From Owenia fusiformis (Eukaryota > Annelida > Polychaeta > Sabellida > Oweniidae), in assembly GCA_903813345.2 (NCBI GenBank), contig CAIIXF020000005.1:31375375-31439374 (forward strand): 64,000 nucleotides of DNA. The letters run 5' to 3'. Below are positions 2,411 through 37,716 of the stretch, piece after piece. Within the stretch, counting starts at the first letter, position 1. Each line of letters starts with the position of its first letter. The notes below the pieces were generated by a model. The model worked only from the letters and a program-made list of their open reading frames with translations, had not been told where the DNA came from and searched no databases. The translations under genes were made by a program, and so were the position numbers.

Positions 2411-2483
2411 ATTCGCTTTGGTTTTCTGGATCTCCCAAATTTTCACCGTATTCCCTGAACGACCAAGAATCGTCTATGCTATC

Positions 2484-4529
2484 TAAAAATTAAAACAAGC
2501 ATAAAGTATTTTAATATCTTGTGATCTAACCATACCTGTTAAAAGATGGTGGCGGTTTGTCCTAACTTATGACGTCACATACTTACACTTGTTCCTAAAT
2601 AATTAAACCACATTTATTAATCATTCTGGTTTCTGCAATAACTGAAAATCATTCTTCTCATATCGATCACCCACCTCAGTTATTTCCCCTTATCACTTAC
2701 CTGCTATATTTAAACATAAAGCTGGGAATTGTATCCAAGTAGAATGTAATACTTAAAGTGGCATTAGGAGATAGTGTAAAGTGCCAAATGTTACAAGCAA
2801 CTTTTACTCCAAGAAATAATTATGTGTCCCTTACCATCCAAAATATATTAGAAATATTCAAGATGCGCAAATTCTTTTTTAATTGAAAAGGTCATTTCTT
2901 CTCAGAAATATAATTAAGAATCCTTTATTACGAATTGCAGCAATTTACATTAATTAAAGTCCTCGGCAATGAATGCTGTCAGCAGAATAATTTAGGAAAT
3001 TGTGATAGAAACAGCTACCATTAATTTTTCTCTAACCTTTACTTTACCTTAAAAAACTTACCTCACCTCAAAGCTGTAGAATACGATACTTTTGACGATT
3101 CAACGTTTACAGTATCAGTATCAGCCTGCAGTATCAATATTAGCCTCTGTAACCCATACATCCCATCATCCAGTAATTTCAATAATTGCACACCAGTAGG
3201 TCTGTTATGACACTCTGCAGAGCTCAGAGGATAACATTTTGTAACTAATAAATTATTATTCCAGTGTAATTACTATAAATAATGATGGAATATTAGAACA
3301 ACGAGCAGTTTGATTCTTAATAAGCATGCCAGAGAACAGTCTGCTGACTGCGATATCACAGGAGAATTTCGAGACGAGCTTATCATTTTTGTACATATAA
3401 TAATCTATAAGTGGTGGCTTTCTAGTTAATATTCTATCAAGGTTTGAACAATTTATCATTGATAAAGAGATATCCTGTACCACAGCAGGCCTGTAAGGGA
3501 ACATTTGATACATGTTTTCGTTTTTATCAGTTTTTCTGACATGGTCAATGCGATAACAAGGTTTTTATGAAACCAGTTGGTGCGATTAGAGTTCCATCTA
3601 TGCATGGTACAAAGATTCATACAACAGAATTACAGAAATATATCTCTAAAACAAACTCAATGTTCATATCATTCCGGGATCGTATGAATGAAAACTTACA
3701 AATGCGATCCTTCATTTTTTGTGCGAAAACAGAATTGAACGAAGTTAAAACGTCAAGAAATAGAGAAAGTAAAGGGAAGAGTTGGGTGTAGGTTTTAAAG
3801 AAATGCCAGTGTTTCGGGCGGGGGGGGGGAGCATTCTTTGTCATACCTTATTTGGCCTTATTTTATGGCTAAAAAAAGTAAATTTTCCCGGCCCATCCCA
3901 ATAACACATTTAAAGATTGCTTCCAATTATTTACACTCTTAATGTTACGTTGTCAATTTACGATAAAGCTATACTATTTTTTACTATTCCTAGTCATGAA
4001 ACATGTAACTAATAAATAAGTTTTTCTAATTACGCGAAAAGCTTATGACAGGAAAGATCCAAAGTACCCATCTAGTTTTGGAATAACTTCAATGTATAAA
4101 GGAGTCCTCTTGATTGTGAACTACTTTGTAATTAAGAAAAACGATGTTTTCTAATGATTTCATGCAGTTATTATAAAATCGTTGGGAAATTGAAAAAAAC
4201 AATTGTCTGAATTTGGTGTTATTGCCATTGTTTAATTTCCCTATATCATAGCTTTCATACATATCATCATCCAACTTAATGAAATATTTGTAAGTTATGA
4301 TGAGTTGACTCGACTATGGGCTAAACACTTCAATGGAGAAATCCATGACAATTTGACACCAATATTGTAATTATCTATATTTTGTGCTTATAAAGTGGTT
4401 TAGAAATGGTCGTGTCAAGGTATTTGGGGATTTTCCTACTCGTCTATTATAATACGATGATTCCAAAACTATTGCATTTTTGTGACAAGTATGAACCAAT
4501 ATTTCAATTTTGATGTGATTACATAAAGA
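2484..4529. other. Intergenic region without a supported gene
   Basis: This lies between the upstream end of the 1.2-2.4 kb glycosyltransferase exon and the 3' end of the SLC5 gene. Open frames such as 3256-3513 (-) and 3567-3791 (+) have no recognisable domain, no splice context and AT-driven composition. A G-run (about 3821-3830) is the only low-complexity feature. The 5' UTR exon and promoter of the 1.2-2.4 kb gene should lie here, but I cannot place them. Confidence 0.5.
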
Positions 4530-4535
4530 TTTATT
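4530..4535 (-). terminator. Polyadenylation signal AATAAA of the SLC5 gene
   Basis: The plus strand reads TTTATT, giving AATAAA on the minus strand about 60 nt past the stop codon of the SLC5 transporter. It is the only canonical signal in the near 3' flank. Confidence 0.5.
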
Positions 4536-4594
4536 CATTTCATTGTTGTCAAATGTAACATGTATAATATGTCAATCAGTTGACCATCTCATAA

Positions 4595-15510: not shown

Positions 15511-15897
15511 CTTTACTGATGTGTTTCGGCATTCACCAAACGCTTGTTTCGTTGAGGGTGCGATATGGGGTCGCAGGACTTATTGACTCTGTCTCACCTG
15601 CAAACATATTCGTATCAAATTCTATGATTCTGTAAATTGTTTAAGCACATTTATGATTTGAAGCAACACGATCAATAGACTATATGAGTCTTAAATTAAT
15701 ATTTGGATTATCTGATTAACGACATTCAGAGCATTGAATTGTAAGGAGTTGTGTTATGAAACAAAACTTATGGGCCACCCTTAGCCAAACACCCAGGACA
15801 GACGAGTTTCTTCTTTTTGACATCTACAAATGGAAATTTTAAGATTTAAGTTTAAATTTTTAAGTTTAAGAGTCTACAATTGTCAGATTACATGTAA

Positions 15898-16787
15898 CAC
15901 CCTTGGTATACGCAGCTAACGAAAATTGACCGGCACGGGTCAAAAGCTGGACCGGCACGGGTTAACGGTTTTATTTGAATTTAAAATAGCCATTACTTGC
16001 TCAATAATGACTTCCTCGTGTCTAATTTGAAATATATGATGCCTCCCGATGCTTTTAAGTACCCCAATTTTTTACAGATTTTTAAACGGACCAAAACTCT
16101 CTAAATGCGCATTTATGCTCTTTTCTCTCGAGAACGACTGTCTCATCTTCACGATAACTTTTATTTAGTACTTCTAACATATAAGATCTATTTTTCCCCA
16201 TCAAGGTATGATGTAAATGACATGCTATTTACATCTTGTGAGTTTCAATGACGCGCGTTTGATTTTATAAAAAATGCCAAACTTTGTGACAAAGAATTCC
16301 ATCAGCTATTGCCCCGAACCGGTCCGTCTTCTCTCTGCAAGCAGATTGCCCCGAACCGGTCCGTCTTCTCACTGCAAGCAGGATGAAATTCTTTGTCACA
16401 AAGTTTGGCATTTTTTATAAAATCAAACGCTCGTCATTGAAACTCACAAGATGTAAATAGCATGTCATTTACATCATACCTTGATGGGGAAAAATAGATC
16501 TTATATGTTAGAAGTACTAAATAAAAGTTATCGTGAAAATGAGTCAGCCGTTCTCGAGAGAAAAGAGCATGAATGCGCATTTAGAGAGTTTTGGTCCGTT
16601 TAAAAATCTGTAAAAAATTGGGGTACTTAAAAGCATCGGGAGGCATCATATATTTCAAATTAGACACGAGGAAGTCATTATTGAGCAAGTTATGGCTATT
16701 TTAAATTCAAATAAAACCGTTAACCCGTGCCGGTCCAGCTTTTGACCCGTGCCGGTCAATTTTCGTTAGCTGCGTATACCAAGGGTG
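15898..16787. mobile_element. 890-bp foldback element: two 406-bp arms around a 78-bp loop
   Basis: The left arm 15898-16303 and right arm 16382-16787 are exactly equal in length and nearly perfect complements. The element starts CACCCTTGGTATACGCAGC and ends with the complement. A 5-bp direct repeat TGTAA flanks it (15893-15897 and 16788-16792), read as a target duplication. Each arm carries two GACCGGCACGGGT subterminal motifs ~21 bp apart, plausible transposase-binding sites. The loop (16304-16381) holds two ~37-bp direct repeats beginning ATTGCCCCGAACCGGTCC. There is no coding frame. The arm identity implies recent insertion or gene conversion between the arms. Confidence 0.88.
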
Positions 16788-17541
16788 TGTAATCCCATCT
16801 CAAAATGTATTTTGCATTGTTGCCCATTCTTATATTATTCCCATACAAGGGTACACACAATCTAATCATGGTTAATAATTAATTTCATTTACCATTTGTT
16901 ATTCACTGCTGTACTGCTAATATAAATACATACCTGTGTAAGGTTGCGTTGTTAAAATAATCACTTGCTTCTAGTTATTCTATGGGACACTCCACCGTCC
17001 CAGCCTCTCTTGCAGTTAACAATATAATTGTCACACAGCTTCAGTGTTTCTTAATTGTTCGGCAATTGAATATATGTATGTTTATATTAGAATTTCACCT
17101 GTATCAAGGGTAGTATGCTATCCAAAATCCAATCAAAAACAAATGTCTACTCTGTAAAACGTCATGTAAAGAGACTGAAAGAGCTTCATTTATTGAGCTT
17201 TATAAACCCTTTGAAAAGAATATAAGTCGTATTGATTTTATTTACACATGTATTAACTATACGCTTTATTCATCCTGCTATTGCCATTTGTAATCCACGC
17301 TACCTGAATGGTATTGATTGTACAGTATATCCCCCGGGAATAGTTGCAGTACACAGGACGGGAAAACATACTAAAAGTTAATGCAAACGATAACGTTGTC
17401 ATATTGTAGTCATTTTCATACAATTGTTACCATTTTTATCTGTCCATATTATATGTTCATATTCTATATATGCTTCTTAATTACATCAGCAAACTCTAAT
17501 GATTCGTTAAAGTATTATCTTTAAAAATACATGTACATATT

Positions 17542-18955: not shown

Positions 18956-19081
18956 CATCATATCGTATTACCTTGACCTAATTATAAATATGCGTGTTTT
19001 TTCATGTGAGTAGATCTCTGACCTTGAATGTTGAATCTATGTAAATTCTTCCTGAAGTGCATGGGATAAATGTTTTTGAAA

Positions 19082-19162
19082 ATGTCATCGATAAAATCAA
19101 CTACGAGATATGTTGTTGCAATTATCATCGTTCTGATATCGACATTAGGAAATGCACGAGAG
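19082..19162 (+). CDS. Peroxidase exon 1: signal peptide
   Basis: 27 codons from the ATG to GCACGAGAG|GTGATG. The product is a basic start followed by an ~18-residue hydrophobic stretch ending in small residues, a textbook signal peptide. It ends in phase 0, matching the acceptor of exon 2 at 34956. No alternative downstream exon on this strand was found before 34.9 kb. Confidence 0.65.
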
Positions 19163-22100
19163 GTGATGTTTCTTATTTAGCTGTTATTCAAGATTCTTCA
19201 ATAAAGGTAGATCCGTAAGATGAGTATTTTTATGGGATTTCCATGATTATAATAACAAATATTTTATGAAACAGGAAATCTTTAGAAATCATTGTGGATT
19301 CATTTTATTTATCACCTTCTCCTAGAACCGTCTTAGTATAGAATACATAGTTCAAAATCATGTTGAGATGACATTTCCACAAATCTCAATTTTTCTCTGT
19401 TAGTACGCTTCTGCCTTATGGTGCTATGGAAGTTAACAGGAAATGACAAAACAGGAAGTGATAATTTTTTATGCATTTTTAGACATTTTTTGAATAAAGA
19501 TAACAGAGTTCTGGTTTGACCTCCAGTCAATTTAACTATTTCCACATATCATTTACATGACCAGGATCACAATGTGCATGGTCAGAATGACCCTAAACAT
19601 GATGAAATAACCTTTTTAGCCCTTTGAAAGTGTGACTGAAAAAAAGCTTAAAGTAGGAGCGTAGGGATAGTCACTGAACAGAATCTTTTGAATTTTTCAG
19701 AAAATGTGCCCAATATAATGCTCTAACTAGTACAATCTTTGAAAGGATGATTCTCGGTTTGGAGAACGAAGTTCATCACTCTAATTGAGCGCTATCCCTG
19801 CTTCGGACAAATTTGATTTTTTTACATAATATAGATTTGAATGTCTTCTTTTGAATAGACATAAATTAATTTGGGTAATATTTCTAGATTTTCCATAAAA
19901 AAATTACTAGTGAACCACCCAACGTCGCTTCTATGATTCGTACCACTTTTTTAACTTGATGTATTGCATATTTTCGTGGGTCGATTTAAAAAAAATACAA
20001 ACGACGTATACATGAATATGTCATAAGCATATCGTGAGATAATTGTTAGATTAGGTTTGCTATAAGTGACTTTAAAACAAAAAAATAAAAAACATTAGTT
20101 CACGTGTTAAAGTTCCATTGACCGTGACATCAAGAAAAATTGAGCTTTTTGTCATCAGACATCTTTATAGATGGAACTAGCTATGTACTACATTTTCAAA
20201 TACACTCACATAGAACATATCTAAGATGTTCTTTGTATCGATGAAAAGATTCTTACATTCGGAAGTTACATTAAAATATCAATTGCAATAGCCGCCTGTT
20301 TTTAACATCCCTTTGTCACTCATCCCTTAATTATCTCTGTGTATCCATTCTGATACTCATAGCATCTTTCTGTTTCACCTGAAACATCTCAGGGCTGAGA
20401 AGAAATGAGATGTCATGGTTTATCATGATGCTGTGTATCTTATACTTGTGTGTGTTCGATTTTGATAGCACCCGAGTGCAACCTAAGGAGCACATACAAT
20501 ACATTTTGTGTATGCCCAGTCTGGTCTTATATCTGCCTGCTCCGAGGAATTTTGGTGGCGATTTTTTGATTTTTGTAATAGCCTACTACATAGCATCTCT
20601 TGTGCGCGTAAATCCCAATGTTTTAAAATAGAAAATAGAGACTGAATTCTATATCGATAGTTTCACAGATGAGGGTAGCGAATGGGCGCAGCTTTGACGA
20701 TCAACGAATGATATAACGATATCACGGATTTCACCGAATGTTATATTCATCCCTAAATAGCTTATTTATTTAGTCTTAAGATCCTTGTGATGTTTCTATT
20801 CATTGCAGTGACTCTGAAATTGCTGTGCCAGATATGACGTCACAGCGACTCATTTTCCAACATTTAAGCATTTAACTAAATAATTGAAATATAATTATTA
20901 AAGAATGAGGACCTTGTGTTTCACTCTGGACGAGGGGGGCCATGTCTCGGCTAGTTGTGCATTAACGTTTGATACTCTTTTGTGGATAAAAATAATGAAT
21001 ATATGTTAACGTAGCACTAAGCAGATACTTTTAAAGAATATAGTTACACTTAAAGAATAGGTCCAACGAATAATTGGAGAGGTTAAGCTTTGCATATATA
21101 ATCGAAACTGAACCTGTACGTATCACTCGACCATATACAAATTCATGTAGCCTCCTCATATAAATAGCCGTTCAAATCCAGTGTTTGTTTAGACTACACC
21201 ATAGCGTGTAATGATTCTATAGTATGTCATTGATGCGGTTTTATAGCTGGTTTTCTAATACATATTTTAAACGAGCTCGTTTCGTAAGATTTTTGGCGCT
21301 AAATCATGCATGACATACATCATCGTGTTCAGCAAGAATTCAACTGTGCATCGAAATCAAAATTTACAGCATAGTGTTCAATAGACACGAGTAAAATGGT
21401 TCCCGTTGACCCAACGTCAAATATTCAAATCTCCCGTTCTAAACCCGAAACTCTAAAGCTGAAAGAGTATCTGAAGTAGACTAAGCGCGCATAAAACTAT
21501 GAGCGCTCGATACATTCCTTTGTTAATTTTTGTACTTTGCGTTCACGGTTACGTTGTGAAAAACATCGTTAGCTTAACCTCTCCGATATTGAATATAGGA
21601 CTCGTTTGATGAACGATCGTTGTAATAATTCTAATAAACCTATAGAAATGAATCAACGATTAAAGTGCTTATTCGGTAATTTCTGTTTATTTTTTCTCAC
21701 TGCAGTAGATTAAACAGATATTGGTAAGTAAAAATAGTATTCCAACAGACTCTTAACTCATTCTATTTGTTCATTAGTGGCAAAATAAGATTTCCCGGGA
21801 AAAAACATGACCTCACGAACAGAACCGGTTATGGATTTTTATCGGCAATGCGTTATGCAACTCGAATGTAAATTCAAAAGTGTTCATGTTATACCGTGTT
21901 CTGATTGGCCAGAAAGGAGTAACACTTACCGAAATCACCTCATGGTTCAATGCCTTTTGGTTACAAGATTTTAGACGCCTTATGTTAGGTAATACTATCA
22001 ACTGAGCGTGTTTATTTTCTATATTGTGTTCTGACTGGCCAGAAAGTAATTCTGCATGACTAGCTATGTGAAAACGTACCGCTGGGTCGGAGGCTCTAAT

Positions 22101-25100
22101 TTAGGTATTATTTTTTTTGGTTTATCGGAGGAAAAAACGTGACTCCAAAGTAGTCATCTCTGAATCAATTCCTCACTTCAATGAATGCAGTTGCAATCAA
22201 TTACACTAACACTTTATAAGCACGTTCGGAGATTATGAACTCCAACAACATATTCTAAACCCGTCCTGTTCGTGATGTCATGATAGAGATTTGAAATTGT
22301 GTTCCCGATTTTGAACATTAAATTTCACATTTATAAAAATGTTTACAAGAACGGTTACTGGTTCGACATGTTAGTGGTATTTACTTCATTTAGAACGTGT
22401 ATAAACTGTATTTTGACCCCATGAGCATCGAACAGACACTTTAAGTTAATTGAAAGACTTCGTGTTCAAGTTAGCTGAATTTCGTGTAACTTAACTCTGT
22501 TATGTTTCTAGATTTTACTTGTGGAGAACAGAAATCATAATCACAATCGTATTTTAAGGCAAATAGGCCATGCATATGCTTTGAGTTACACGGTGAATGA
22601 TCAAATTAACATATTTTGGATGTTGAATTTCATTTCAAGTTCATTCGAATTTTACGCATTATCCAATAAAATTAATGTATACTGTCTAGGCTGAGACTAA
22701 CATATATGTTATTTAATGTATTTAATATACAGGATATATCTGAGAAGGTTATACATGTATAATATATCTACAAGAGGAACAGTGGGGACCGAGGGTTCAT
22801 ATATTACCTTTACCTGTCGAAAATCGGGCATTTAATAACTGATTTATTTGTAAATTATGAGGATTAGATACGCATTGAATGTAAGTTATTGAGGTGTTAG
22901 AAAAACAAACTTACAAACAAACCACCGAGTTTAGACATATTATTACATGTATTGTCCTATTATCAAATCATATATTGTGGTCTATTTCTAAAACGTTAAC
23001 AGTTTATGGTGTACAATAAAACTATTACTATGAACCACTTTGATACATTTAGACATAAAATATCAAGTTACTCATCAGCCAACAATCACAAAATATCGAA
23101 AAATGAAAAATACGAGGTACGTGTTCACTCAAATCTTGCAGTCAATATTGGTAATGTATGTTATATAAATAGTATATAACATATATAATGTATATTATAT
23201 AAATAGTTCGCAAAGTAAATGAGCAAAAGCGTAACATTTGTATGTAGCATGCTTCATAAAACAAGTCAGCGTGCATTTTGTTCCTGGCACTGATTGGTTA
23301 ATAAGTGAATACAATTCGTTGAATGCACGATGCACTCACAAGATTAGCAGCTGGGAAAGGCTATTCAACAAAAAGTACGCTTTCGTACTCATAAAAGGAT
23401 TACCCTTTTACAACTTTGACAACTTTGAAGCATGAACTTAGAAATGTACTTACTGTTACTGTTACCCTGTGGATCCCAGGGTTTTGATATGTTCTGCGAA
23501 GTCATGCAAAGAAAGACCATATAGTCCATTTGTCATTTTCTGAACGTATGAATATTTAAAAGTATGATGTTTTTCTGTGTAAATACTATCATTAGGGATT
23601 ATTGGAGTGATTTAGCTGGGTTGCCAAAAAAATAACTTTGGGGAAAATTTTGGTATCTATTACCATAGTAACATACCAGGTATATGGTGGTATCCCAACG
23701 CTAAGTCAATAGTCAACGCCATGTTAAGCGATTGCACCCCTCCCTAATCAGCCTATATAATTTTTTCCCCAAACAAACTTTTTCGGCAACCCAGTTAAAT
23801 CACTTCAGAAAACCCTTATTATCATAAATCGACCATAAAACATCGTACTTTTAACAAATTCCAGGTTCACTATTGGATGTATAGGGGTGACAAATGGACT
23901 AATATACTAAAAGTATATGCCTGCTAGTCATATCTGTGACACTTTTGTATGATATGTATTCCACTTTGAACCACCATCTATTTCAATATTGTGAAAATAT
24001 ATATTTCCCAAATTATAAAATAAATGATCTTGTATTCGCGAATGCCACTAACGCCTGTCGGCTGCCGGATTAACCTACTATTTTATGGGCAATTCATTAA
24101 AATATGAATGGAATATTGGCAGGTACTTTTAATATTTAAATGAGTTGCCCATAGAAAAGTATGTTAATCCGGTAGATAAAATCTTTCATTCCCAAATCAT
24201 AGTCTTAGCTTATATTTGCGAATGCAAATAACGCCTTTCGGCTACCGGATTAACCTTCTATTTCACTGGAGACCCATGTAAATACGAATAGTACCTGCCA
24301 CTATTCCATTCACATTTAAATGAGTTAGTCATAGAATACTGGGTTAATCAGGTAACCGAGATGCGTTAGTTGCATTCGCGAATATAAGGTTAGAGTCCAT
24401 TTCACTGTTTTATTGCGTCAGTAGAACCCCAAAAATAAGAAATCGGGAGACCATTGTGCAATAATATATGGAAAAGTAGATTCATATTGTACATGAATGA
24501 CATTTGTATATTTTAGATTTTCTCGTTTTTTTTGTGCAATAAGACTGTGACCTCTTGTAATTTGAAGAATTTCAGCCATGTTAATCTTATTGAAAATAAC
24601 ATGGCAGAGAAGCATCCATATATAAGAGGCCACACAGTTTATAAGCCAAACTAGAAGCAATCCAAGATATTCAACAGTGAAATGGACTAGCTTGTATTCA
24701 CGAATGCAAGAAACGCCTGTCGGCTACCGGATTAAACTACCTTTGCAATCGTCGGTATTTTAGCGCGGAGATAAATGTTCAATATGACATAAATATTTGA
24801 TATGACATCGATGAATACTTTCATCATTCTGGTGGAAATGTCTACCAAACTCCCCTCCCTTGTTCCCCTTCCCCCAAGTAACTTGTTAAGCTAAGTTCAC
24901 ACCAACGGCGCTTTGATGGCGCTTTTAAGCGGCGTGCAAAGCATAATCAACTGATGTGAATTTCTGAAAATTGTGAATTAAGCTTATATCGAAAAAGCTA
25001 AAAATCCTTTGTTCATGTCACTAAAGGTTCGAAAACGTTATTACATTTTCCAGTTACTTTAGTTACCACAGTTATCCAAGGCTATTTGGGCAAATAAAAT

Positions 25101-28100
25101 CCGTAGTTTGAGTGATCAATTCACGCTCAGCGATACTGCATGGGGGACATGAAAAGTTGTTTATTTTCCAATAAATCCTGCCATCATTTGGTACATCAAA
25201 GAACCTGATTATTGGCTAGATTAATGATGTCAAAGGTTGTAGGTAGCAATATGTCCATAAAAAAGGATTAACTTATTGCTGAAATTGATAAAGAACAACC
25301 CATGCCATCATCAATCTAGCAAATCCAAAATGACTAATGACTCTGTTTAATGGTAACTGAAAAAAGACTGGAAACTTTTATTATATATAGCAACATACTG
25401 AACATAATCGATGGTTTCATTTTGTCAATCGAGGTTTTATTACAGATTCTTATACGATAAACCAAACAACTTTTACATTTACCAGTCGCTTATGGTAATT
25501 AGCCATACATTTCTAGGTATACGTTTTATCGCAATCGTGTCAAAATATAAATTGTATTGATAAACAGAAAAGAACACAAAAAATCATATACGGGCGCCAT
25601 TTTTCTAAGGTGTATCTAAGTGTTGTTTAATCTCTCTAGACTATCTCTCATCAACGGCTTATTGTAGATTGGTTGAACAATGAACGTGTTATTTATAGCT
25701 ATAATAACCACGTTGATCGATGCTTGGGCGAATTTTAAGGTTTAAATCAGGAAGAGAGAGGTAGAAAGAGGCGTAATCTTGTGGCAAGTTCCTCACCTCC
25801 TACGCGCTGAATTGTGTTTCGATTCCCCGTCCATTCTCCACACCGATTTTTTATTTTTAACTCATTGATGTATCCCTTTAAAGGAGTACAGGCTACAGTG
25901 AAGCTGTAAAGGAAGGACGTTTGTTTATTTCCATATTTCTGAATGTAAGCTTATACTAGATTTTACATACATGTTTATTCCAAGTGTTCTACTATATATT
26001 GTATAGATTCATCAGGCAGTTTTCAGTGTATTATTAGCAGAAAATCCCCATCGACCACGTAATCACGTGGTAGGATAGAAGTGATATAAATACACCCTCT
26101 CCAGCTCACAGCAATTGACTAGCTTATATTCACCACTAGCATAGTTCATAGCAAGTGGTGACATCTAATTAATAGATGATTAATCAATTTTATATATGAC
26201 TTGTAAAATGCCAAAAATCTGAAGTCGCTCTTTTGAGAGGCCCTCTATTGGATGAATGTGTATAAAATGTCAGAGAATATCTCGAAAATGGGACACGATT
26301 TAAGAATGAATTATTTTCGAATGTTTCTTAAAAACATATTGAAAGGATTTTTTCATGATATGCTCATGACATATCCCTGTATGCTTTGTTTGTCTTTTTT
26401 CTCAAATTGACCCACGGAAATATGCAATACATCAAGTTAAAAAAGTGGTACGAATCATAAAAGCGACGTTGGGTGGTTCACTAGTAATTTTTTGATGGAA
26501 AATCTAGAAATATTACCCAAATTAATTTAAGACTATTCAAAAGAAGACATTCAAATCTATATTATGTAAAAAAATCAAATTGGTCAGAAGCAGGGATAAC
26601 GCTCAATTAGAGTGATGAACTTCGTTCTCCAAACCGAGAATCATCCTTTTAGAAAATTGTCTTAAACAAAAATGGCGGTCATAAAAAGGAAAATAGATCG
26701 CTTTTCAAATCAGTTTTTTCATTTTTTTTTCTTTTTCTATGAATGATATCAAATTTTCTAAGATTGTATCATTTAGAGCAATACATTGGGCACATTTCCT
26801 GAAATATTCAAAAGATTCTGTTCAGTGACCTTCCCTACGCTCCTACTTTTAGCTTTTTTTCAGTCACACTTTCAAAGGGCTAAAAAGGTTATTTCATCAT
26901 GTTTAGGGTCATTCTGACCATGCACATTGTGATCCTGGTCATGTAAATGATATGTGGAAATAGTTAAATTGACTGGAGGTCAAACCAGAACTCTGTTATC
27001 TTTATTCAAAAAATATCTAAAAATGCAAAAAAAATTGTCACTTCCTGTTTTGTCATTTCCTGTTAAGGCGACGCTATATTAAATAAAAAGTACAAAAAAT
27101 GACTGCCATATTTTTTTGATAAAGACACATGTTTTTAAAATCTGTTTACCTTGTATATGAATTGTGTATCTTGACTAATGAAACATGTCAAAGTTAACAT
27201 CACACATAAACGCATTTTTCCAAACTATGAATTGGAGGTGCATGGATCCCCAAAGCTAGCATGAAGAGTGCGAAGTGAGGCTAATTTTTGAAAGTTTCAA
27301 GGAGTAGCCTTGCAACAGTCACACATTTGCAAGAGTCTAAAATTTCCACAAATCATCTTACCTTTCCCAGGAACAACGAAGGAGCATGAAAATGTGCACT
27401 TCTTGCATTGTTAGAGTATAATAAAGCTCAAACCATTGTAAATTCTAAATATTTCATGTCCACATTTTGTTTGCCGGAACTACTTCTAGACTTCCTGATT
27501 AATCCTCATGCAAGTTTTGTGACTACACCAAGTGGCATGGATTATCACTTGTATGTTTTATCTATTACAGTGTAATTATCATGATAGATACATGATAGAG
27601 GCTTTATGAATGATAAACAATGGAAACATGATGGAAGATAACTCTGGACTAAAAAATAGTTCCAGGAAACAAAATGGTGGACATGAAATATTTAGAATTC
27701 ACAATGGTTTGAGCTTTATTATACTCTAACAATGCAAGAAGTACACATTTTCGTGCTCCTTCGTTGTTCCTTGGTAAGGTAAGACTATATCTAGAAATTT
27801 TGAATTCTTGCAAATGTGTGTCTGTTGCAAGGCTACTCCTTGAAACTTTCAAAAAATAGCCTCACTTCGCACTCTTCATGCTAGCTTTTGGGAGCCATAC
27901 ACCTCCAATTCATAGTTATGAAAAATGCGTTTAAATGTGAGGTTTTCTTTTATGTGTCTCTTTAGTCAGGAAATGCATTCACATACAAGGAAAACAGTAT
28001 ACAAAATCTTCTGACTTTATCAAAAAAATATGGCTCCCATGTTTTTGTACTTTTGATTAACTTAAATGTCACCTTAACTTCCATAGCACCTTAACGGTCA

Positions 28101-31100
28101 GGGTGCATGATGGGAAATTTTCTGCATTCCTCAATTGAGTCACATGTTATTTTTCAAACAAGAATCACTCCTTCCCTCCATTGTCTATATCTTCCAGTTT
28201 TGCACAAAGAGTGCACTTCTGTGCCTTGAAAAGACTTGTGAGAAGAATGTTTTGATAAAGTGCATAAAAAAAGAGTAAAAAAATTCAGTGAAAAAAATCA
28301 GAAAATTTTCAGAAATTTTTTTCACTGAATTTTCTCATTTTTTATACATTTTACAAAACAAACCTTTTCACAAGGCTTTTCTAGGCACATAAGTGCACTC
28401 TTTGTGCAAACTTGGAAGATGTAGACAATGTGGGGAAGGAGTTATTCATGTTTGAAAAATAACACGTGACTCAGTTGAGGAATGCAGAAAATTTCCCAAC
28501 ATGCACCCTAGACTATATCCTCTAGTCTGAAATTTTTTGAAGTTTGGAATGAAAATATTCAGACTATAGCCCACAGATGTTAAAATCTGGGATTGAAAAA
28601 TATTTGTTTACATAGGAAGTGCCATTCGAAATGGCTGATGGAGTAAATTATTTGCATATTTGTTACTTCACCTAGCTTTATTTTCATTTGACAACATGCT
28701 GTGTTACTTTTTATAGCATTTAATTGCACCTTAGTACTTAATTGAATTGTTATAATGTTTATTTTTGGGAAGTGATGCTTCTTAAAATTGATAATTTTGT
28801 GCACAAAATTTCCTGTTTTTTCCCACAGTAGGGAAATGATGATCAACAGACTGAATTCTCAGGATATTCATTCTATTGGATATAGACTAACATGCACCCT
28901 GTTCTTAAGGCTCAGCTGGAAAGTAACATTTTGGTAAAAAATTGCTATACCTGCACATGTTATTTTCTGGTACAAAATTAAGTATGAAGGTATGTGTGTA
29001 TTTCCTTGCTTTTTCCAGGAAAGCATCATTACACAGTCTACTTTTAGTAAACCTGGAAACAGGTCAATGGGAGCTCCTGTGTTGTCTGGAAACTTACCAG
29101 ATATTCTAAAAGACAATGTTATGATACTTTCCTGTTAAAAGCAAGGAAATTGACACATGCATTCTTACTTAATTTTGTACCAGAAAATAACATGTGCAGG
29201 TCTTGCAATTTTTTTACCAAAAGGACGATTCTCGGTTTGGAGAACGAAGTTTATCAATCTAAATGAGCATTATCCCTGCTTCGGACAAAGGAGCAGGTAA
29301 GATATGGCAAGCCATTTTCAAAGGGCTATATCTTTAATTCTAAGAATACTTTAACCACAAAAACAAATGGTTCTGTTAGATCCATGTCTTGTCTTCAATA
29401 AATGACAGTAGGATGATAATCAAGTTGAATGGATTATCTCGTAAGCTGTTCCTAATCCAACCATCTTCACCAATTTTCCCTAATTCGGACGCAATTTTCA
29501 CCAAAAATGCAGCATTTTATTTCAGCTTTTATGGCAAAATTACAATTTATTGTAAGGAATGATCTACCTCTAAAAAGGAAAACTTGATTACTTTGGGATT
29601 AGGATAATCCAAAAACAATAACTTTTTTTAGGCCGAATTTTTTACCTAAAAGTAGCAATTTTTTAATGAGATTGATGCAAGAAAACATTGAGCTTATGTC
29701 ACATGATTGATTTCCAAAAAGAAAAAAATGATCTAAATGAGATAAGCATTATCTGATAATCCATTTGTCATTTTTACCTCATAGGCCATGACCTTAGTGT
29801 GAAGTGTATGAAAAGATGTCACTTAGAGCGACATTAAGATGTACCTATTTTATGCAATGATGTTTATAGATAGAGTTATATATGTTCCCATAGATGGCAT
29901 GATATATTCTACATGGGTGAGTGCTAGATACTCTGTGTATTCATTGTTGCATAATTGCGTATTATAGAAATGAGCATGGATATGTCAACATGACTGGGTC
30001 GTGTAAAGTATGTACAGTAAAACATAAATATGTCTAACACCTAGTAAAACACATAAGAGGAAATATTTGTTTATATATTTGAATTGTATAGTGTAAATGA
30101 ATATTTGAAATATTACACATTTGCGATGTTTCAACAAACATGATTCAATACCATCTTATTTGAAATACCTCTTCCCATGTGTATCTTTCTTTATCATCAA
30201 CCATATTGGGGGTTTCGAAAGTGCCTTATGTAAAGGAGTTTGCTGTAAATGATCTTTCGAATAGTGTTATATGTAGTAGGTATTGATACAGGTACCCCTG
30301 TATACAGAGTACATGCAAATAATAATTTTCTCCAATGGTTTGGCCAAACATTTGTTGCATTTTTTGTTCATTTCAAATTTTATTGGATTGTTTTTGCTGA
30401 TAGGAATTTTTATGGAATGAAGAGTTTAATGCGTTGGGTTTTACCCTTTGACAATATGTATATGGCCTTGTGTAATTATGGCCATGTGTAATTATGATAT
30501 TGTCACTCGATCACTCTATATTCTCAGTCAATACTTCGGGCTTTGTATGAAAAACCTTATACCTCGTACCCACGTACCGGCGTACTTGGGGCATGATACA
30601 TTCTTTGAAGAGTTCAATTCTAACGTTTCAGATTATTCTGATCATATGAATTGTAGGTGCATTAATGCACTTGTAGACCTACGTGTATGTCTTATAGATC
30701 TAACATTTTTCTAGTCATAAATAAGGCCAGAATTGCAAAATTGTTTACCTTTGCTATTTCGATAAAAATTGCCTATTTGAAATGCTCGTTCACTATAGAA
30801 CCAATCTACACTAAAACGTGAATATACGAGACCTGAGACTACAATTATCTTTAATCATGCTGTGGTTAAATAAAATGACACCCTGACATATTTAAATCTT
30901 ATTTAGAATGGATTTTTCTCTATTGAAAAGTCCTTTGAATGGCGCTATTTTGACAATCAATGAAAAACAAAAAATTAACAATTCTGGCTTTATTTTATGA
31001 CTCTGTATCTATCTATCTTTCACTAGACGAAGTTCACATCTATGGATACTATGAATGTATTTATACCTCAGATAGCATTAAAATTGAATAATCTTTTAAA

Positions 31101-34100
31101 ATTTTAAAAATTGAACCCTTCAAAAACTGCATCACCACCCACGTACATGGGTATGAGGTACGAAGCCAATACTTCGTAAAGAAATCATTAAATATAACAT
31201 GTAGAAAAAGGCATTGCCATTACAAAATGTCATCACCGTGTAGTTCAAGTCAAATATTGAAAAGAAAATTATTATATGAAGCAAGTTGAAAAATGCCTAT
31301 TTGAACTTTTTGAAATTGAGAGGTCAAATGTCAATTCAAAAGTCAGATTTGACTTCTGAGAACTTGTAGGTGATTTTGAAAATTCGGTCAATTCGAAGCA
31401 AGTTGAAAAATACCTTTTAGACCCTCTTTACTTTGAGAAGGTCATTGAAGGTCAATTGTAAAATTTAAAGTCAGATTTGAATTTTTGAAAAATTGGTCAA
31501 TTTAAGACCGTTTTCACCTTAAAGAATATGAATATACAGTAGTAAGAAAGAGGAGTGCATTCTTGTTGTATTGTTTTTGAAGAATGGACACTGCAGCTAT
31601 CTAAAACCAGTGTGGCACAAAATATGATTGAAAGTGTTTGGCTCAATATTTACACCTTGACTGTCACATGCAGTGCACCGAAGCTGTTCTTATTAAACCA
31701 TTTTCAATCACTCAATAGTTGAATTGTAAACACAAAATAAATACAATTTTCAATGTACCTTGTCTGATACATGCAGTGCATTGAAGCTGAACCAATCAAA
31801 CCAACCCACTTCTCTACACATTTACCACATAGTTAATACAAAAGAATTTTTCTAGACTTTGATCATGGGTCAATTAACCTTCATAAGAATCAGTGTGGAG
31901 TTTAAGTTAGATAAACTATTCGAAATGGGTCATATGAGAACTATTAGCCTCAGGCCAATCCCCTCTGCTATTATTTCTCATAAAACCCAGTACTCCTAGT
32001 TTATCCGTAACTGAATGAACGATTAGAGGATTCAGTGACCTTCTATAAAATTACAAACTGAACATGTTGTTATACCTTAGATGACTACCTGGTTGTTATT
32101 CACTAAAGGGGGTCTCATTATAGGTTGGCACATAAAAATGCCTTTGGGTTCAATGACTGCCACTTGGTTCGGGGTTGTTGCTTTTAGGGGCTGTAATTAG
32201 AAATGGAGGTTTTGGTTTTAATAAGGGATCCCAAACTTATCTTTAGGCCATAGGTCTATGTAAAAGTAGTAAAGAGTAACCTTATACCTTCCTTCCTACT
32301 ACTTTTCCCTAGGCCTATGCTGTAGGTCAATCGACGGAATTATGATTACGCTTAGGGGTGCTGTGATTCCAGAAATCAATAAATGCTGCATCTAATATAA
32401 CACCATTCTTGAGTCGATTTGACCTAGGATGAAGAAACTACATAGGTGACCACGGGCTTTGAAACCCCATTACAAGTAGTGATAGCGAATTCAACTAACA
32501 ACTGCCAGATCAACCTACTATTTTATGGCTCATTAAATATAAATAGTACCTGCCACTATTTCATTCATATTAAAATGAATTTGCCATCAAAAGTAGGTTA
32601 AATCATCGCCTTTTACCCAACATATGACATCATAAATACTATCAAAGTGCATTCTAATACCGAGTGAGCCAAAAATGTAGCCCAAACTAATTCCGCATCT
32701 GTTAAAATGTTATTTCGCATAATAAAACCTTTTTTAATGTTCTTTCATTTTACTAAGTTTAATTGGCCCTGCCCCAATAGTCGGGATTTTATGGCTATAA
32801 AACGAAACATGGTCCAAAATGCCAGCCTCATCTCATGACTACGGGCTATCTCTGAGATAATGTCAACCCCTAGAACAAGTAGGAGAACAATTTCTGTGAC
32901 CATGAACTTACAACCTCAACCGACCAGTGCAGGTCTGCCTGAAGGGACGAGGCTGAAATTTGTAGAATGGCCATAGAATTGTGACCTTGAGGAATGGACC
33001 CATGAAATATGGTAAAATGCAAAAAGATTTTACATGGTAAAATTAACTAAATATGATTTCAACTCATACTGGATGAATGAGTTAATAACATTTCTTTGGA
33101 TGACATTTTTGCCTCACCCTGTAATTCATTTTATTTTCACACTTATTCATTTCAGCCTGCCCTAACAAAGAATCTAGGTTGAATAGCCAAAACCAGGCAC
33201 ATGTAATTACAAAGAACTATTCAGTATATAAATAGCTATACGTGAATGACACAACTGTTTTATACACAAACAATACAAGGTTAAATACAGGATTATAATC
33301 CATAACGCTGAGTAAGTCACTATCTGAGTGTTTGAAAAGTGTAACAAACAAATTATTTATGGCACTTAGCTGCCCTCTATTTTGTAATTGTATAATATTA
33401 GTATGAAGCACTTTAAAATATCAGAAAAAAATACGAAAAAATCACGAAAAAAATATCAAAAAGTAGGTCTACAATTAACTTTTCCCCTTTACAGTTTAAA
33501 TCATGTCTTAAAGTTCAATACAACTTTGCGCTAAAAATTATTAAAAAGGCCTGCACTTTTGGTGAAAATTGCATCTGAATTAGGGAAAATTGGTGAGGAT
33601 GGGTGGATTAGGGACAGCTTAAGAGATAATTCAATCAACTTGATTATCATCCTTATGTCATTTATTGAAGATAAGACATGGATCTAACAGAACCATTTGA
33701 TTTTGTGGTTAACTTATTCTTCGAACTAAAGATATAGCCCTTTGAAAATGGCTTGCCATACCTTACATGCTCTTTTGATTTTTTTACATAATATAGATTT
33801 GAATGTCTTCTTTTGAATAGTCATAATTTAATTTGGGTAATATTTCTAGATTTTTCGCAAAAAAATATTAGCTCAGTACACTGATGGACTTCTTTCCCCG
33901 AATCGAGACTTGTATTTATATTGATTCGGTCTATTTGAGCATTATCCCTGCTTCAGACCAATTTGTTATCTTTACATCTTGTAGATTTAAATGTCCTCTT
34001 TTGAATATTCATAGTTTAATTTGGGTAATATTTCTATATTTTTCATGAAAAAAATTATTAGCCCAGGAGACTGTTCTCCAAACCGAGAATCGTCCTTTTA

Positions 34101-37100
34101 CTTTCCAGCTGTACTTTGCCTTTGCACATGTTATTTTCTGGTACAAAATTAATTCTGATATTTCACGCTTTCTATCTTTCCAAATTATTCTTAACATGTG
34201 TTAATATCCTTGCTTTTTTCAGGAAAGTATCATTACATTGTCTGTATAGTAAATCTAGTAAGAGTTCAATGGGAACTTCAGGAAAATCTGATATTTCACG
34301 CTTTCTATTTTTCCAAATTTTCTTTCAAAGTTTCCAGACAACACAGGAGCTACCATTGACCTGTTTCCAGGTTTACTAAAAGTAGACGGTGTAATGATAC
34401 CTTCCTGGAAAAAGCAAGGAAATACACACATACCTTCATACTTAATTTTGTACCAGAAAATAACATGTGCAGGTATAGCAATTTTTTACCAAAATGTTAC
34501 TTTCCAGCTGAACTTTAAGGTACTATTTGTTCTTTTTCCCAAAAGGAAAAGTAGATTCCTTGAACGATATCAAAAACTGATTTTGAACGGCGGGAAACGG
34601 GTGTTTCGGACGGCGTCAAAAACAAATTATATTGAACGGCGTCAAAAACGATTTTTGAACGGCGTCAAAAGATTTGGAACGGGTTCATGAATTGCATGTG
34701 AAACGTAAATGATTTTTAACGGCGTACAAATCATTTTTGACGACGTCAAAATGTTTTTAACGGCGTACAAAATGATTTTTTGACGCCATTAAAAAGGGTT
34801 TTATCATTATCGTATATTCTTATCACTTGCATATGACATCTCTTGAGTTTCAATATCACATGGTGGATTTAATAAAAAATAACAAAAAACCATGACCATG
34901 TGAAAGAGTTTCACAACACCTAAAAATTTATTAAAAAATTTTGTTTACTTTATAGACTGAAGACGATTTGGAGCAAACGATTAGAACGTCCATTGTAGAT
35001 TACATTAACTCTAAAACAGATAGATTTGGGAACCATTTCCTCATAGCAGGATTTGTTTCACTGGTCTTCCATGACTGTGTAGGAGGCTGCGATGGGTATG
35101 TAGTTTTTATATACATAATCTAGATTATATTCCTGCACGTATTTATATTTAAATCGATGACATCATATGACGTCTGTGTTGCGTATGATAATTTGGGAAT
35201 ATGACTAAGCAATTATATATTATAGTTTATCATGTATCTCAAACCCGATTCAATATGTATAATATATCTACAGCCCAGTTCATTGTTTTATTTCGTCAGT
35301 AAAACCGAAAAAATAAGAAATCAAAAGATCATTGTGCAATGATATATGGAAAAATATATTAATATTGTACAAAGATGGCATTTGTATATCTTGGACAGCT
35401 TCAAGTTTACCAAAGTATGTGGCCTCTTATATTATGATTATTCTCTGCCATAGTATTTTCAAAAAGATTAATATGGCTGAAATTCTTTAAATTACAAGAG
35501 GGCATAGGCTTATTGTACAAAAAAACTAAATAATCTGAAATATACAAATGTCATTCATGCACAATATGAATATACTTTTCCATATATAATTACACAATGG
35601 TCTCCCGATTTCTTATTTTTGGGGTTCTACTGACGAAATAAAACAGTGAAATGGGCTGTAGATCGCATAAGATGTTGAGTTTCTTGTATGAGTACCTGTG
35701 TAAGATCGTCCTTTCTTGATGAGCTTTGATACTTTTTCTTTATAGAGTCGAATTTTCTCATATGACTCTGTACTATGCCATATTTTCACCTTTTTATGAT
35801 AAATTTGAGTTATATAATTGCATTCGAGTTTAAAACAAAGTCTGATGAATCATAAAATTATTGACTGTTGTAAGCTTTTAACATTTAAACGTATGGCAGT
35901 CTGTCCCAACCAAAACAATTAAAAACAAGTAGTGACATCTATTTATTCAGCTTTAATCAGCAGTTCCTTATTAGACTGCGGTATTCAAATGAAATAAATT
36001 AGCAAATCTGAACCAAATATAAAACATATTTATAAAATAGATGGAACTACTGAGTTTACTGTCTGATAGTACTAGAATACACTGAATATAGTTCTATTCT
36101 ATTTAGTTTATTTTGTATTTCAAAAAAAGATTTTCTTATAAAAACTCCATGGGTCTTTAAGTTATGTCTGTCTTGTTTTGGTAAATGTTGCCATTTGTGT
36201 TTTTACATGATAACGACTATTTTTTGTTAAACAGGCAATGCGCCTATTTTTGAAGGAAAAAGGACAAAATATTATTTGAGACATGTCACTCACACAGTCA
36301 ATCAAATATGATGAAAACTTTAATTTGGGATAATACTGAAGTGAAAAAAAAATTATTCGCATAGAAAACTGCATTTGAAGTTCAGAGATTGAAAAAAGTG
36401 AATTACCACTTTTCACAAAATGTATGTTTTAAATAACTCTTGGATTAAAAGATGGCGTATGCTTGAAAATCCTATCAAAAATGAATGGATAATCAATGCA
36501 AACAACAATGCCATCTTTCTATGGCATTGCTAAAAACTTGACACATATAAATTGATAGATCAAAAATATTTTTTCATGATCTAGTGTCAAGTCTGATGTG
36601 GTCTGTTTGAGCTATTTTTGGTGTCAAATGAAAGATCAGGTACTTATTTATACATTGGAAATACTATGAAGATCAAAAGTGAGACTTCATTTCAGCACTT
36701 TGTCCCTTTAAGATACTTATTTTGACTCTCAGCAATAATAATTAGCGAGGGACGAACAGGCCATATTCCCGACTCATCCTTTTGATTTTTCTTATTAAAA
36801 TGTCATGCGTTCGTGAATATAATTCAATAATACGTATATGTTTGTTTGCAATAATGATATTTCAAATTTAACCCACCCATGAATGTTTTATTTTAGCTGT
36901 ATAAACGATATACACCCGCAAAATGCACCGGTATTACGTTACATTAATGAAGCAGAGGCCGTATACATTAACTATTCCCCATCCCTATCCAGGGCTGATT
37001 TTTGGGCGCTGGCTGGCATCGTGGCTACGGATATGGCTCTTGGCTACAACAACGGCAGCAATGTGACTCAACTTGTGTACAGACCAGGCAGAGTCGACTG

Positions 37101-37716
37101 TCCAACTTCCCCATATACAAAGAAATTCAACAAATTTCCGACTAATGGGGGCCATGGTGACTTTAATGATATGTTGGATTTCTTACAGCGGCAATTCAAT
37201 TACAGCGACAGACAAGTCGTCGCAATCATGGGTGCGCACAACCTGGGACGTATGAGCCGTGAACACTCAGGGTTTATTGGTCCATGGACGCCTTGTCCTG
37301 ATGTTCTGGACAATGAATATTATATCTATTTGGTGCAAAACGATTGGGTGCAGGTAAACACAGTTGTTAAAACAACCGGGCACAGAGATATTCATGACAG
37401 GTTCCAGTGGAGTGACCGTTCACATGTTCCCGATGCGTTCGACCACAATGTAGAAAAATACCTCAACGTTGATATAGCAATATATCGTAATATATCCACG
37501 ACAAGCAATGGAAAGGTAGAGGTTCCACTTAACCAGACATCATTTTCTCGTACAAAAGCTATCGTAGAGGAATTTGCGGGTAACAACGACATTTGGTTGA
37601 AGGAGTTTATATCTGCGTTTCAAGCAATGATTCAATCAGGATGTGAACAAAAAGGTCTTAAGCTTTCGCCAATAGAGAAACAGTATCCTCTTGAGCTACC
37701 ATGGTCAGATCTCTAA
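19082..37716 (+). CDS. Secreted ascorbate-peroxidase-like haem peroxidase (three exons)
   Basis: Exons 19082-19162, 34956-35095 and 36897-37716 join in frame to 346 aa. Exon 1 encodes a signal peptide: basic 'KSTTRY' then hydrophobic 'VVAIIIVLISTLGNA'. Exon 2 carries the distal haem pocket 'LVFHDCVGGCDGC' (distal His66). Exon 3 has 'RPGRVDCPTSP', the proximal-haem block 'VVAIMGAHNLGRMS' (His188) and 'HSGFIGPWTPCPDVLDNEYY'. The order matches the plant/fungal/bacterial peroxidase superfamily as found in invertebrate ascorbate-peroxidase-like proteins; the role would be H2O2 reduction outside the cell or in the secretory pathway. Odd: the residue four before the distal His, Arg in active class I-III enzymes, is Ser62. 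The intron 2 junction splits a Gly codon. Intron 1 (15.8 kb) is full of transposons. An ATTAAA signal lies at 37810-37815. The exon 1 link is inferred from phase and signal peptide. Confidence 0.8.
23606..23804. mobile_element. ~199-bp MITE with AGTGATTTAGCTGGGTTGCC terminal inverted repeats
   Basis: The left end AGTGATTTAGCTGGGTTGCC pairs with the right end GGCAACCCAGTTAAATCACT (one mismatch), with AAAAAA/CCCCAAA stretches inside. It lies in the interior of E1. The exact outer boundary and target duplication are uncertain because the inverted match may include a palindromic target. Confidence 0.6.
24029..24740. repeat. Cluster of related palindromic repeats ('CGAATGCA..ACGCCTNTCGGCTNCCGGATTAA')
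   Basis: The unit CGCCTGTCGGCTGCCGGATT occurs at about 24053, again at about 24230 ('CGCCTTTCGGCTACCGGATT') and about 24713. An inverted arm at 24345-24389 ('GATGCGTTAGTTGCATTCGC') closes a ~180-bp hairpin with the second copy. A separate hairpin with TCCATTTCACTGTTTTATT ends (about 24393-24687) sits between this arm and the third unit. That second hairpin is related to the TA-flanked element at 35271-35658. A fragment of the first family recurs near 32500-32610. Confidence 0.65.
27067..28073. mobile_element. 1,007-bp TTAA-flanked foldback MITE inserted in the right arm of E1
   Basis: TTAA at 27063-27066 and 28074-28077 frames the element exactly. The ends GGCGACGCTATATTAA and, inverted, GGTGACATTTAAGTTAA lead into ~420-bp imperfect arms (for example 'AACCATTGTAAATTCTAAAT' near 27432 pairs near 27700). 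Removing it with one TTAA restores the E1 right terminus to match the E1 left terminus, so its insertion into E1 is directly visible. The end GGTGACATTTAAGTTAA resembles the E1 end GGTGCTATGGAAGTTAA, hinting at the same transposase. Confidence 0.82.
28095..28904. mobile_element. TTAA-flanked element with CAGGGTGCATG termini and an internal hairpin
   Basis: TTAA at 28091-28094 and 28905-28908 bracket 810 bp. Just inside, CAGGGTGCATG (28099) pairs with CATGCACCCTG ending at 28901. A second hairpin, 28100-28509, pairs 'GGGAAATTTTCTGCATTCCT' with its complement. The right part (28510-28890) has no long pairing. Two readings fit: one element with a duplicated left terminus, or a 410-bp hairpin next to a solo end. 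Confidence 0.5.
29223..29290. repeat. Shared subterminal module 'GATTCTCGGTTTGGAGAACG' (E4 left copy)
   Basis: GGACGATTCTCGGTTTGGAG, followed by a 'GAGC..TATCCCTGCTTC(G/A)GAC' block, occurs at 19745-19805 (E1 left), inverted at 26590-26650 (E1 right), here, and split with internal duplication at 33775-34100 (E4 right). It links E1 and E4, although their extreme ends differ. Confidence 0.7.
32660..33121. mobile_element. 462-bp TA-flanked MITE (Tc1/mariner-like) inside E4
   Basis: The left end CCGAGTGAGCCAAAAATGT and inverted right end CAGGGTGAGGCAAAAATGT are imperfect inverted repeats. TA occurs on both sides (32658-32659 and 33122-33123). The termini resemble those of 9178-9381 (CAGGGTGGCCCAAA). 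No open frame. Confidence 0.6.
34580..34795. repeat. Array of ACGGCGTCAAAA-like motifs
   Basis: About seven copies of (G/T)AACGGCGT(C/A)(C/A)AAAA lie 20-60 bp apart: near 34607, 34634, 34657, 34717, 34738 (GACGTC variant), 34757, and one inverted (TTGACGCCATT) near 34780. The core GACGTC/GGCGTC is close to a CRE/bZIP half-site. The array begins 65 bp after the TTAA closing E4 and ends 160 bp before peroxidase exon 2. Confidence 0.6.
34956..35095 (+). CDS. Peroxidase exon 2: distal haem pocket
   Basis: Acceptor TTTACTTTATAG and donor GATGG|GTATGT. It encodes 46 codons plus two bases, including 'FHDCVGGCDG' with distal His66. The residue at the distal-Arg position is Ser62 (codon TCA). The split Gly codon is completed by exon 3. 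Confidence 0.85.
35271..35658. mobile_element. 388-bp palindromic MITE, TA-flanked, in peroxidase intron 2
   Basis: It begins CAGCCCAGTTCATTGTTTTA and ends with an imperfect complement (AAACAGTGAAATGGGCTG). TA flanks both sides (35269-35270 and 35659-35660). The arms pair almost to the centre ('ATTGTGCAATGATATATGGA' with its near complement). Related to the hairpin at about 24393-24687 in intron 1. Confidence 0.75.
35660..36896. other. Remainder of peroxidase intron 2
   Basis: AT-rich intron sequence with no exon-like frame and no repeat that I could match elsewhere in the window. The acceptor at its end is GTTTTATTTTAG|C. Confidence 0.5.
36897..37716 (+). CDS. Peroxidase exon 3: catalytic core, proximal haem site and C-terminus
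   Basis: 273 codons including the TAA. Contains 'RPGRVDCPTSPYTKKFNKFP', the proximal His188 in 'VVAIMGAHNLGR', the conserved 'HSGFIGPW' and 'DNEYYIYL' blocks, and N-glycosylation sequons (NGS, NVT, NYS), consistent with secretion. No transmembrane tail follows. This exon alone carries most of the family signature, so the family call does not depend on the distant exon 1. Confidence 0.88.

Follow-up and report, generated by a model that had tools for sequence, protein, structure and literature searches.

Apparent giant TTAA transposons in Owenia fusiformis read as a stack of small MITEs with nested Spy-like bodies

We analyzed a 64,000-nucleotide stretch of the genome of the annelid Owenia fusiformis (assembly GCA_903813345.2, contig CAIIXF020000005.1, positions 31,375,375 to 31,439,374; here, the window), in which positions 19416-34518 had been described as a chain of inverted-repeat units bounded by TTAA, two of them (E1 and E4) being giant non-autonomous elements. 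Our analysis gives high confidence that separate, independent insertions have piled up here in layers, so that miniature inverted-repeat transposable elements (MITEs) of the TTAA type lie edge to edge and hold Spy bodies and a small element, Q, inside them. Judged by its sequence, E1 is a palindromic MITE of about 760 bp (MITE-A) whose center holds a 6.9-kb Spy body. By the same kind of comparison, E4 is two adjoining MITEs of the D type, the first of which is split by a small Spy element, itself split by a 4.5-kb body, and the unit between them, E3 (28095-28904), reads as MITE-P split by Q. All elements in the stack belong to known kinds, here unusually well resolved. An apparent class of giant TTAA elements thus turns into a case of nesting, and split palindromic MITEs can mimic giant inverted-repeat transposons.

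Comparison of the window with itself recovered the inverted repeats on which the original prediction was built: arms of 95% identity at 19433-19751 and 26748-27066 (E1), arms of 97% identity at 28904-29095 and 34328-34519 (E4), and palindromes at 27062-28078 and 28100-28509. The five TTAA junctions are also where they had been placed (27063-27066, 28074-28077, 28091-28094, 28905-28908, and 34515-34518), and the one-base variant is the leftmost junction, which reads TTAT at 19416-19419. One abutment is inexact: an extra C at 28095 separates TTAA from the end of MITE-P. A MITE had been noted within the right arm of E1, at 27067-28073, and we find it there as MITE-B, in a TTAA that lies 13 bp inside the right end of MITE-A. 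The features of the stack are as follows (coordinates on the forward strand of the window, with the basis of each in parentheses; TIR, terminal inverted repeat; TSD, target site duplication).

19420-19744, left half of MITE-A, a TTAA-type palindromic MITE with end GGTGCTATGGAAG (97% identical to solo copy L053; left target TTAT)
19742-19744, AAA half of the putative Spy target AAATTT in the center of MITE-A (joined flanks in MITE-A copies)
19745-26646, Spy-E1, a putative non-autonomous Spy-type element of 6,902 bp with TIRs of about 250 bp (GGATGATTCTCGG) and no TSD (ends of other copies, empty sites)
19809-19814, AAATTT in the TIR of Spy-E1, which serves as a paralogous empty site for Spy-E4 (rebuilt E4 flanks)
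21073-21584, 512-bp insertion within Spy-E1 with inverted ends GGAGAGGTTAAGCT (other copies)
26647-27066, right half of MITE-A, which starts with the TTT of the Spy target and ends at an internal TTAA of the TIR (98% identical to L053)
27067-28073, MITE-B, a palindromic TTAA MITE (junction letters, palindrome)
28078-28090, final 13 bp of the right end of MITE-A (junction letters)
28091-28094, single TTAA common to MITE-A and MITE-P (junction letters)
28096-28508, main part of MITE-P (414 bp, beginning GGTCAGGGTGCATG; about 96% identical to most scored genomic copies)
28509-28889, Q, inside the right terminal repeat of MITE-P, with ends TAGACTATATCC and GGATATAGACTA (10-bp TSD ACATGCACCC at 28499-28508 and 28890-28899)
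28900-28904, final 5 bp of MITE-P, past the second TSD copy of Q (Q duplication)
28905-28908, single TTAA common to MITE-P and MITE-D1 (P-TTAA-D junctions elsewhere)
28909-29222, body of MITE-D1, TTAA type (GGCTCAGCTGGAAAGTAAC; 86-96% identical to the D unit of locus L095)
29223-29289, left part of the putative small Spy element with E1-type ends (91% identical to the Spy-E1 TIR; AAA at 29220-29222)
29290-33773, Spy-E4, a putative non-autonomous Spy-type element of 4,484 bp with TIRs of about 280 bp and no TSD (AAA at 29287-29289, TTT at 33774-33776)
33774-34095, right part of the small Spy element, with end GAATCGTCC (followed by TTT at 34096-34098)
34096-34114, right terminus of MITE-D1 (CTTTCCAGCTGTAC; outer TTAA decayed to TTTG)
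34115-34514, MITE-D2, a second D copy with a degenerate left terminus (94% identical to the L095 D unit over 34194-34513)
34515-34518, TTAA that closes the stack on the right (junction letters)

From the nesting, the TTAA MITEs would form the first layer. In a second layer, A would have received B and Spy-E1, P would have received Q, and D1 the small Spy element; the insertion of Spy-E4 into the small Spy element would come last.

The genome searched for copies of these repeats comprises 498 Mb in 525 contigs, with the window on contig C5. The E1 interior (19990-26400) matches at least 27 loci including the window, with long pieces mostly 98 to 100% identical (27 of 8,751 candidates scored), and the E4 interior (29590-33480) matches at least 37 loci including the window (39 of 3,718 candidates scored), with identities of long pieces mostly 94 to 98% and some of 79 to 91%. 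All five other E1 copies retrieved whole, including one with an insertion near its left end (L005), match the E1 of the window only from 19742 to about 26649, and all four other E4 copies retrieved whole match its E4 only from about 29286 to about 33785; the outer arms are absent from all nine. Flank pieces were also compared with window positions 19000-35000 on either strand (E ≤ 1e-10). None of 20 pieces from 10 E1 copies, taken where TTAA ends should lie, matches this region; among 16 E4 flank pieces, nine match it and none matches the outer arms.

These results bear directly on the original reading, which makes E1 and E4 giant TTAA elements that carry long inverted arms, are non-autonomous, and depend on a piggyBac or Kolobok transposase acting in trans. 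It would account for the inverted outer arms and for outer borders that read TTAA, one of them TTAT. The genome-wide comparison of copies named beforehand as its check came out against it, because the interiors' copies are bounded by AAA and TTT and not by TTAA; E1 and E4 as single TTAA elements were rejected because of where other copies end. The outer arms, found in none of the nine whole copies and none of the 36 flank pieces, stand alone elsewhere as separate small MITEs (as MITE-A and as D units), and the empty site of E1 falls inside MITE-A. We regard this reading as hardly tenable and the layered pile as the explanation of the region.

The ends of the two bodies point to the Spy group of transposons, whose hallmark is insertion between AAA and TTT without a TSD, as given in the portions of PMC4482050 and PMC11304231 available to us. 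The TIRs are 254 bp long and 96% identical in Spy-E1, and 281 bp long and 85% identical in Spy-E4. In the window and five further copies, E1 begins with GGATGATTCTCGG preceded by AAA (six of six) and ends with CCGAGAATCATCC followed by TTT (five of six). A pattern search, which misses ends whose sixth flanking base is C, lists 93 E1 ends, 89 of them preceded by AAA (binomial P of about 1e-118 against an assumed 4%). The left ends of E4 read AAA followed by GGAGCAGG or GGAGCACG at all 12 places read, and none of the seven insertions tested (two in the window and five E1 copies) has flanking direct repeats of more than 1 bp.

Two kinds of empty site show what lay at these positions before insertion. 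When the flanks of E1 are joined (60 + 60 bases), they align without a gap across the junction in 13 of 14 MITE-A copies; AAATTT stands at the junction in 12 of the 13 copies that span it, and one copy (L049) is identical over all 120 bases. The joined flanks of E4 rebuild GGACAAATTTGATTTTTTTAC, as found in E1's own TIR, with no base gained or lost (one empty site). Spy-E4 therefore sits within a small Spy element whose ends are of the E1 type, and AAATTT, present both in the MITE-A copies and in the E1 TIR, was in place before insertion. By AAATTT insertion without a TSD and by their TIRs, Spy-E1 and Spy-E4 thus look like Spy-type elements. One might argue that AAA and TTT belong to the elements themselves, which would then insert bluntly at other sequences and would not be Spy; the near-invariance of AAA at E1 ends leaves end alignment alone unable to separate element from target. 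This is very improbable, however, given that AAATTT is found in 12 of 13 E1 empty sites (AAGTTT in the other) and in that of E4, that element-borne AAA and TTT would need an exact loss of six target bases, and that AAATTT without a TSD is the published Spy target in what we have of PMC4482050 and PMC11304231.

Neither body appears to encode a transposase. The longest open frame is 108 amino acids in the bodies of the window and of the nine whole copies, and 115 amino acids in two diverged E4 relatives. No Pfam match exceeds the cut-off in ten window frames, and no RNA family (Rfam) or tRNA (ARAGORN) exceeds the threshold inside the bodies. A comparison of three Spy-type proteins with the bodies by tblastn gave only weak matches (E of 0.028 to 0.042). 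A transposase or RNA gene hidden in the bodies was rejected on these grounds, as lists of open frames, tblastn, Pfam, Rfam, and ARAGORN all stayed below threshold; a hint of RAG1 at window positions 24418-24723 (E of 0.13, below the cut-off) was treated as noise. In terms of coding content, Spy-E1 and Spy-E4 therefore lack a recognizable DDE transposase and would at most be non-autonomous members of the group. The original prediction of movement in trans without a transposase of their own stands insofar as the bodies lack one, but a DDE transposase of the Spy type is a likelier driver than a piggyBac or Kolobok one.

Such transposases exist in this genome. DDE_Tnp_4 has 150 matches, of which nine loci were fetched first. 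One of them (L066, contig C4) has an open frame of 599 amino acids with the DDE_Tnp_4 domain in an element of about 3.7 kb that reads AAA followed by GGATGAGTCTGGG on the left and TTT on the right, and a 99% identical relative on contig C7 shares these ends and is inserted elsewhere, likewise between AAA and TTT. The ends of this element equal those of E1 at 11 of the first 13 bases, and its 599-amino-acid protein is a candidate driver of E1; a DDE transposase of the Spy type would mobilize the E1 and E4 bodies in trans by a cut-and-paste mechanism. Longer relatives of the protein have 614 amino acids (48% identical) and 687 amino acids (41% identical). No convincing TIRs were found for these 687- and 614-amino-acid relatives (L064 and L065) or for L075-L079 in the pieces fetched. 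A further relative (L080) lies between AAA followed by GGAGTTGGGTAAAC and TTT, an end that faintly resembles that of E4. In a by-eye comparison of the 93 listed E1 ends with the 150 DDE_Tnp_4 places, none lay within 10 kb of each other, and two DDE_Tnp_4 places lie near E4 TIRs among the 40 scored TIR places (C11:10133743 and C2:17062554-17063572); L063, fetched in this connection, entered the tblastn comparison only. As side observations, the 687-amino-acid protein of L064 has a weak C-terminal match to the SWIM zinc finger (PF04434, E of 0.0096, below the cut-off), and the 599-amino-acid protein has a similar Cys-rich stretch by eye.

Several observations fit this account of the stack less well. 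(i) Four of the 93 listed E1 ends lack AAA (GAA, TAT, TAA, and TAA), one E1 copy (L003) has the right flank TTA instead of TTT, and the right end of E4 reads CTCT, which is not the exact complement of GGAG. (ii) Among the MITE-A copies compared, L046 reads AAGTTT at the empty site and L059 leaves the junction uncovered; AAA and TTT flank the small Spy element in D1, but the D copy compared with it, L095, reads ACCAAAATG there; and the left target of MITE-A is TTAT. (iii) We found no transposase-bearing copy of Spy-E1 or Spy-E4, E1 and the 599-amino-acid candidate element have only the outermost bases in common, and the weak tblastn matches of the C-terminal part of the 687-amino-acid protein to E4 copies are a possible coding trace.

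Compared with Spy of the PHIS superfamily as described in the available portions of PMC4482050 and PMC11304231, the window elements are alike in their AAA/TTT target without a TSD and in their inverted ends, and this genome has a DDE_Tnp_4-type transposase with similar ends and flanks. Long TIRs are known for Spy as well, the range published there being 5 to 691 bp. The window elements differ in having no recognizable transposase, and Spy-E1, at 6.9 kb, is longer than the 1,165 to 5,910 bp given in the same portions for intact Spy and longer than the 3.7-kb element that holds the candidate transposase. Arthropoda, Cnidaria, and Mollusca are the phyla given in the portion of the 2024 Spy survey available to us (PMC11304231), and our literature search found no paper pairing a Spy transposon with an annelid. 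From Annelida, a phylum not named in that portion of the survey, the Owenia bodies may add Spy families that are large, young, and non-autonomous and for which natural empty sites exist. Spy-E1 is young: its window and C9 copies are 99.9% identical over 6.36 kb. The 512-bp insertion is common to the window, C9, and C12 copies of E1; in L002 and L004, which hold its empty site, no clear duplication of the target is evident. A 360-bp palindrome in Spy-E1 (24029-24388) is 77 to 80% related to a 100-bp stretch of Spy-E4 (32502-32601), so that the two bodies have an internal repeat in common.

The small MITEs that frame these bodies recur as units of their own. TTAA stands on both sides of MITE-A in all 14 copies, which were chosen by an internal pattern. 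MITE-P is a 414-bp palindrome, and eight of its nine uninterrupted copies read TTAA on both sides, the ninth TTAA and TTAG. D is flanked by TTAA at L095 and by ATAA at L093, and B by TTAA in the window. The E4 arms described originally correspond to the outer ends of D1 and D2. All four families start with GG, although D2 in the window has AG at its right end. At L097, a D copy uses the same internal TTAA of an A copy as MITE-B does in the window, and at L094 a P copy sits in a TTAA of Q, for which the window Q is the matching empty site; the nesting in the window is the opposite one, with Q in the right end of P and a 10-bp duplication. Q (381 bp, with 12-bp ends) has 10-bp duplications at all three sites read (the window, L093, and L094). 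This lies within the 9 to 12 bp given for the TSDs of Mutator-like elements in the available portion of PMC11304231; Q differs from such elements in its short ends and small size. A separate observation at L093 (324-729) is a chimeric MITE with a left half from A and a right half from P, inserted in D; its structure suggests that a deletion fused an A-P pair which abutted as the pair in the window does.

In TTAA duplication and terminal purine-purine (GG), A, B, D, and P look Kolobok-like, and they may be moved by a Kolobok-type transposase. As far as the available portion of PMC6004289 goes, they resemble Kolobok and the Xenopus T2-MITEs in TTAA duplication, GG termini, and high copy number, and differ in being strongly palindromic and chained at shared TTAAs. 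A piggyBac driver would also fit the TTAA duplication, and intact-looking piggyBac transposases are present in this genome (113 domain matches, the best seven in open frames of 560 to 606 amino acids). Of seven piggyBac loci read, five had TTAA-anchored TIRs, which start CTCATT, CTCTTTC, or CCTTTAGCAG, and no TIRs were found at the other two. None of the five resolved TIRs starts with GG, and piggyBac was rejected as the driver of the GG-ended MITEs on this basis; the loci read cover part of the piggyBac families, and we regard a piggyBac origin of A, B, D, and P as unlikely. The GG starts of these families contrast with the CTC or CCT starts of the resolved piggyBac elements and fit the Kolobok rule of TTAA plus two terminal purines in what we have of PMC6004289.

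Single TTAAs common to two MITEs recur outside the window. The end of MITE-A has 354 exact matches to a pattern that includes TTAA, and among the 100 listed, three run across one TTAA into a D-type end. The D end has 371 exact matches, and among the 100 listed, two run into P, one into a B-like end, and one into a D-type end. The rows are partly dependent, as two A rows share one flank and two overlap. The neighbor of the D end at L102 has 12 B-type end bases, and because the match to the B body starts only about 375 bp further on, it was counted as a B-like end. The genome would hold about 4.34 million TTAAs (from 412 in 47.3 kb outside the stack). If the partner copies number 1,500 to 10,000, as assumed here, chance would give 0.03 to 0.23 shared-TTAA neighbors per 100 ends, so that the excess is about 13- to 116-fold. 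The chance probability is 7e-6 to 2e-3 for three or more neighbors and 6e-8 to 1e-4 for four or more. However, this estimate for edge insertion depends on the assumed copy numbers; at 20,000 partner copies the probabilities become 0.012 and 0.0013, respectively.

The bases next to the TTAAs deviate as well. GG follows TTAA at 12 of 100 A ends and 11 of 100 D ends, against 58 of 2,414 TTAA sides (2.4%), and when recognized neighbors are set aside it still does so at 9 of 97 and 7 of 96 (P of 6e-4 and 9e-3). This residue suggests that additional families with GG ends lie at the edges, or else that sites resembling CCTTAAGG are preferred. The first flanking base is G at 32 of 100 and 24 of 100 ends, against 16% (P of 7e-5 and 0.03).

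It is likely that the excess of shared-TTAA junctions is real, and tethering and sequence preference fit it alike. Each TTAA insertion would leave two new TTAAs framed by CC and GG, and if these edge TTAAs are used more often than others, a chain would follow. We tentatively propose, with a little less than even confidence, that TTAA MITEs strongly prefer the edge TTAAs of their own kind, that chains grow in this manner genome-wide, and that the AT-rich palindromic centers then serve as landing pads for Spy. Alternatively, the chains could be composite elements (such as P-TTAA-D) that transpose as a whole, using the ends on their outside. The recurrence of P-D junctions in the window, L095, L100, and L101 would suit composites, and both histories leave identical TTAAs. 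Six of the seven chain loci were fetched (the D-D one was omitted), and they show D-A, A-D, D-P, P-D-P, D with a B-like end, and D within an internal TTAA of A. Because the arrangements differ, the loci are not copies of one composite, and the varying partners and orders make us doubt that movement as composites produced the chains, although P-D may be an exception. Repeated insertion into TTAA at the edges of earlier elements, offered originally as the simplest account of the window, thus gains from junctions of A, D, and P (and the B-like end) that recur elsewhere in varied arrangements and above the chance estimate. Our literature search on chained MITEs found nothing apt, and the excess of shared-TTAA junctions makes it possible to test whether transposons choose the edges of older copies as targets.

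Three further features lie elsewhere in the window. To the left of the stack is a 0.9-kb palindrome of 94% identity (15897-16788). To its right, the frame described as a peroxidase (36883-37716) matches PF00141 (E of 2.6e-9), which we take to be the haem peroxidase family of the plant, fungal, and bacterial type; to our knowledge this family is unusual in animal genomes. Finally, a 7.6-kb unit is present twice in tandem at 43190-58406 with 99.87% identity, and the frames of one copy show reverse transcriptase and endonuclease domains. The unit is probably a non-LTR retrotransposon that was either copied recently in tandem or duplicated in the assembly.

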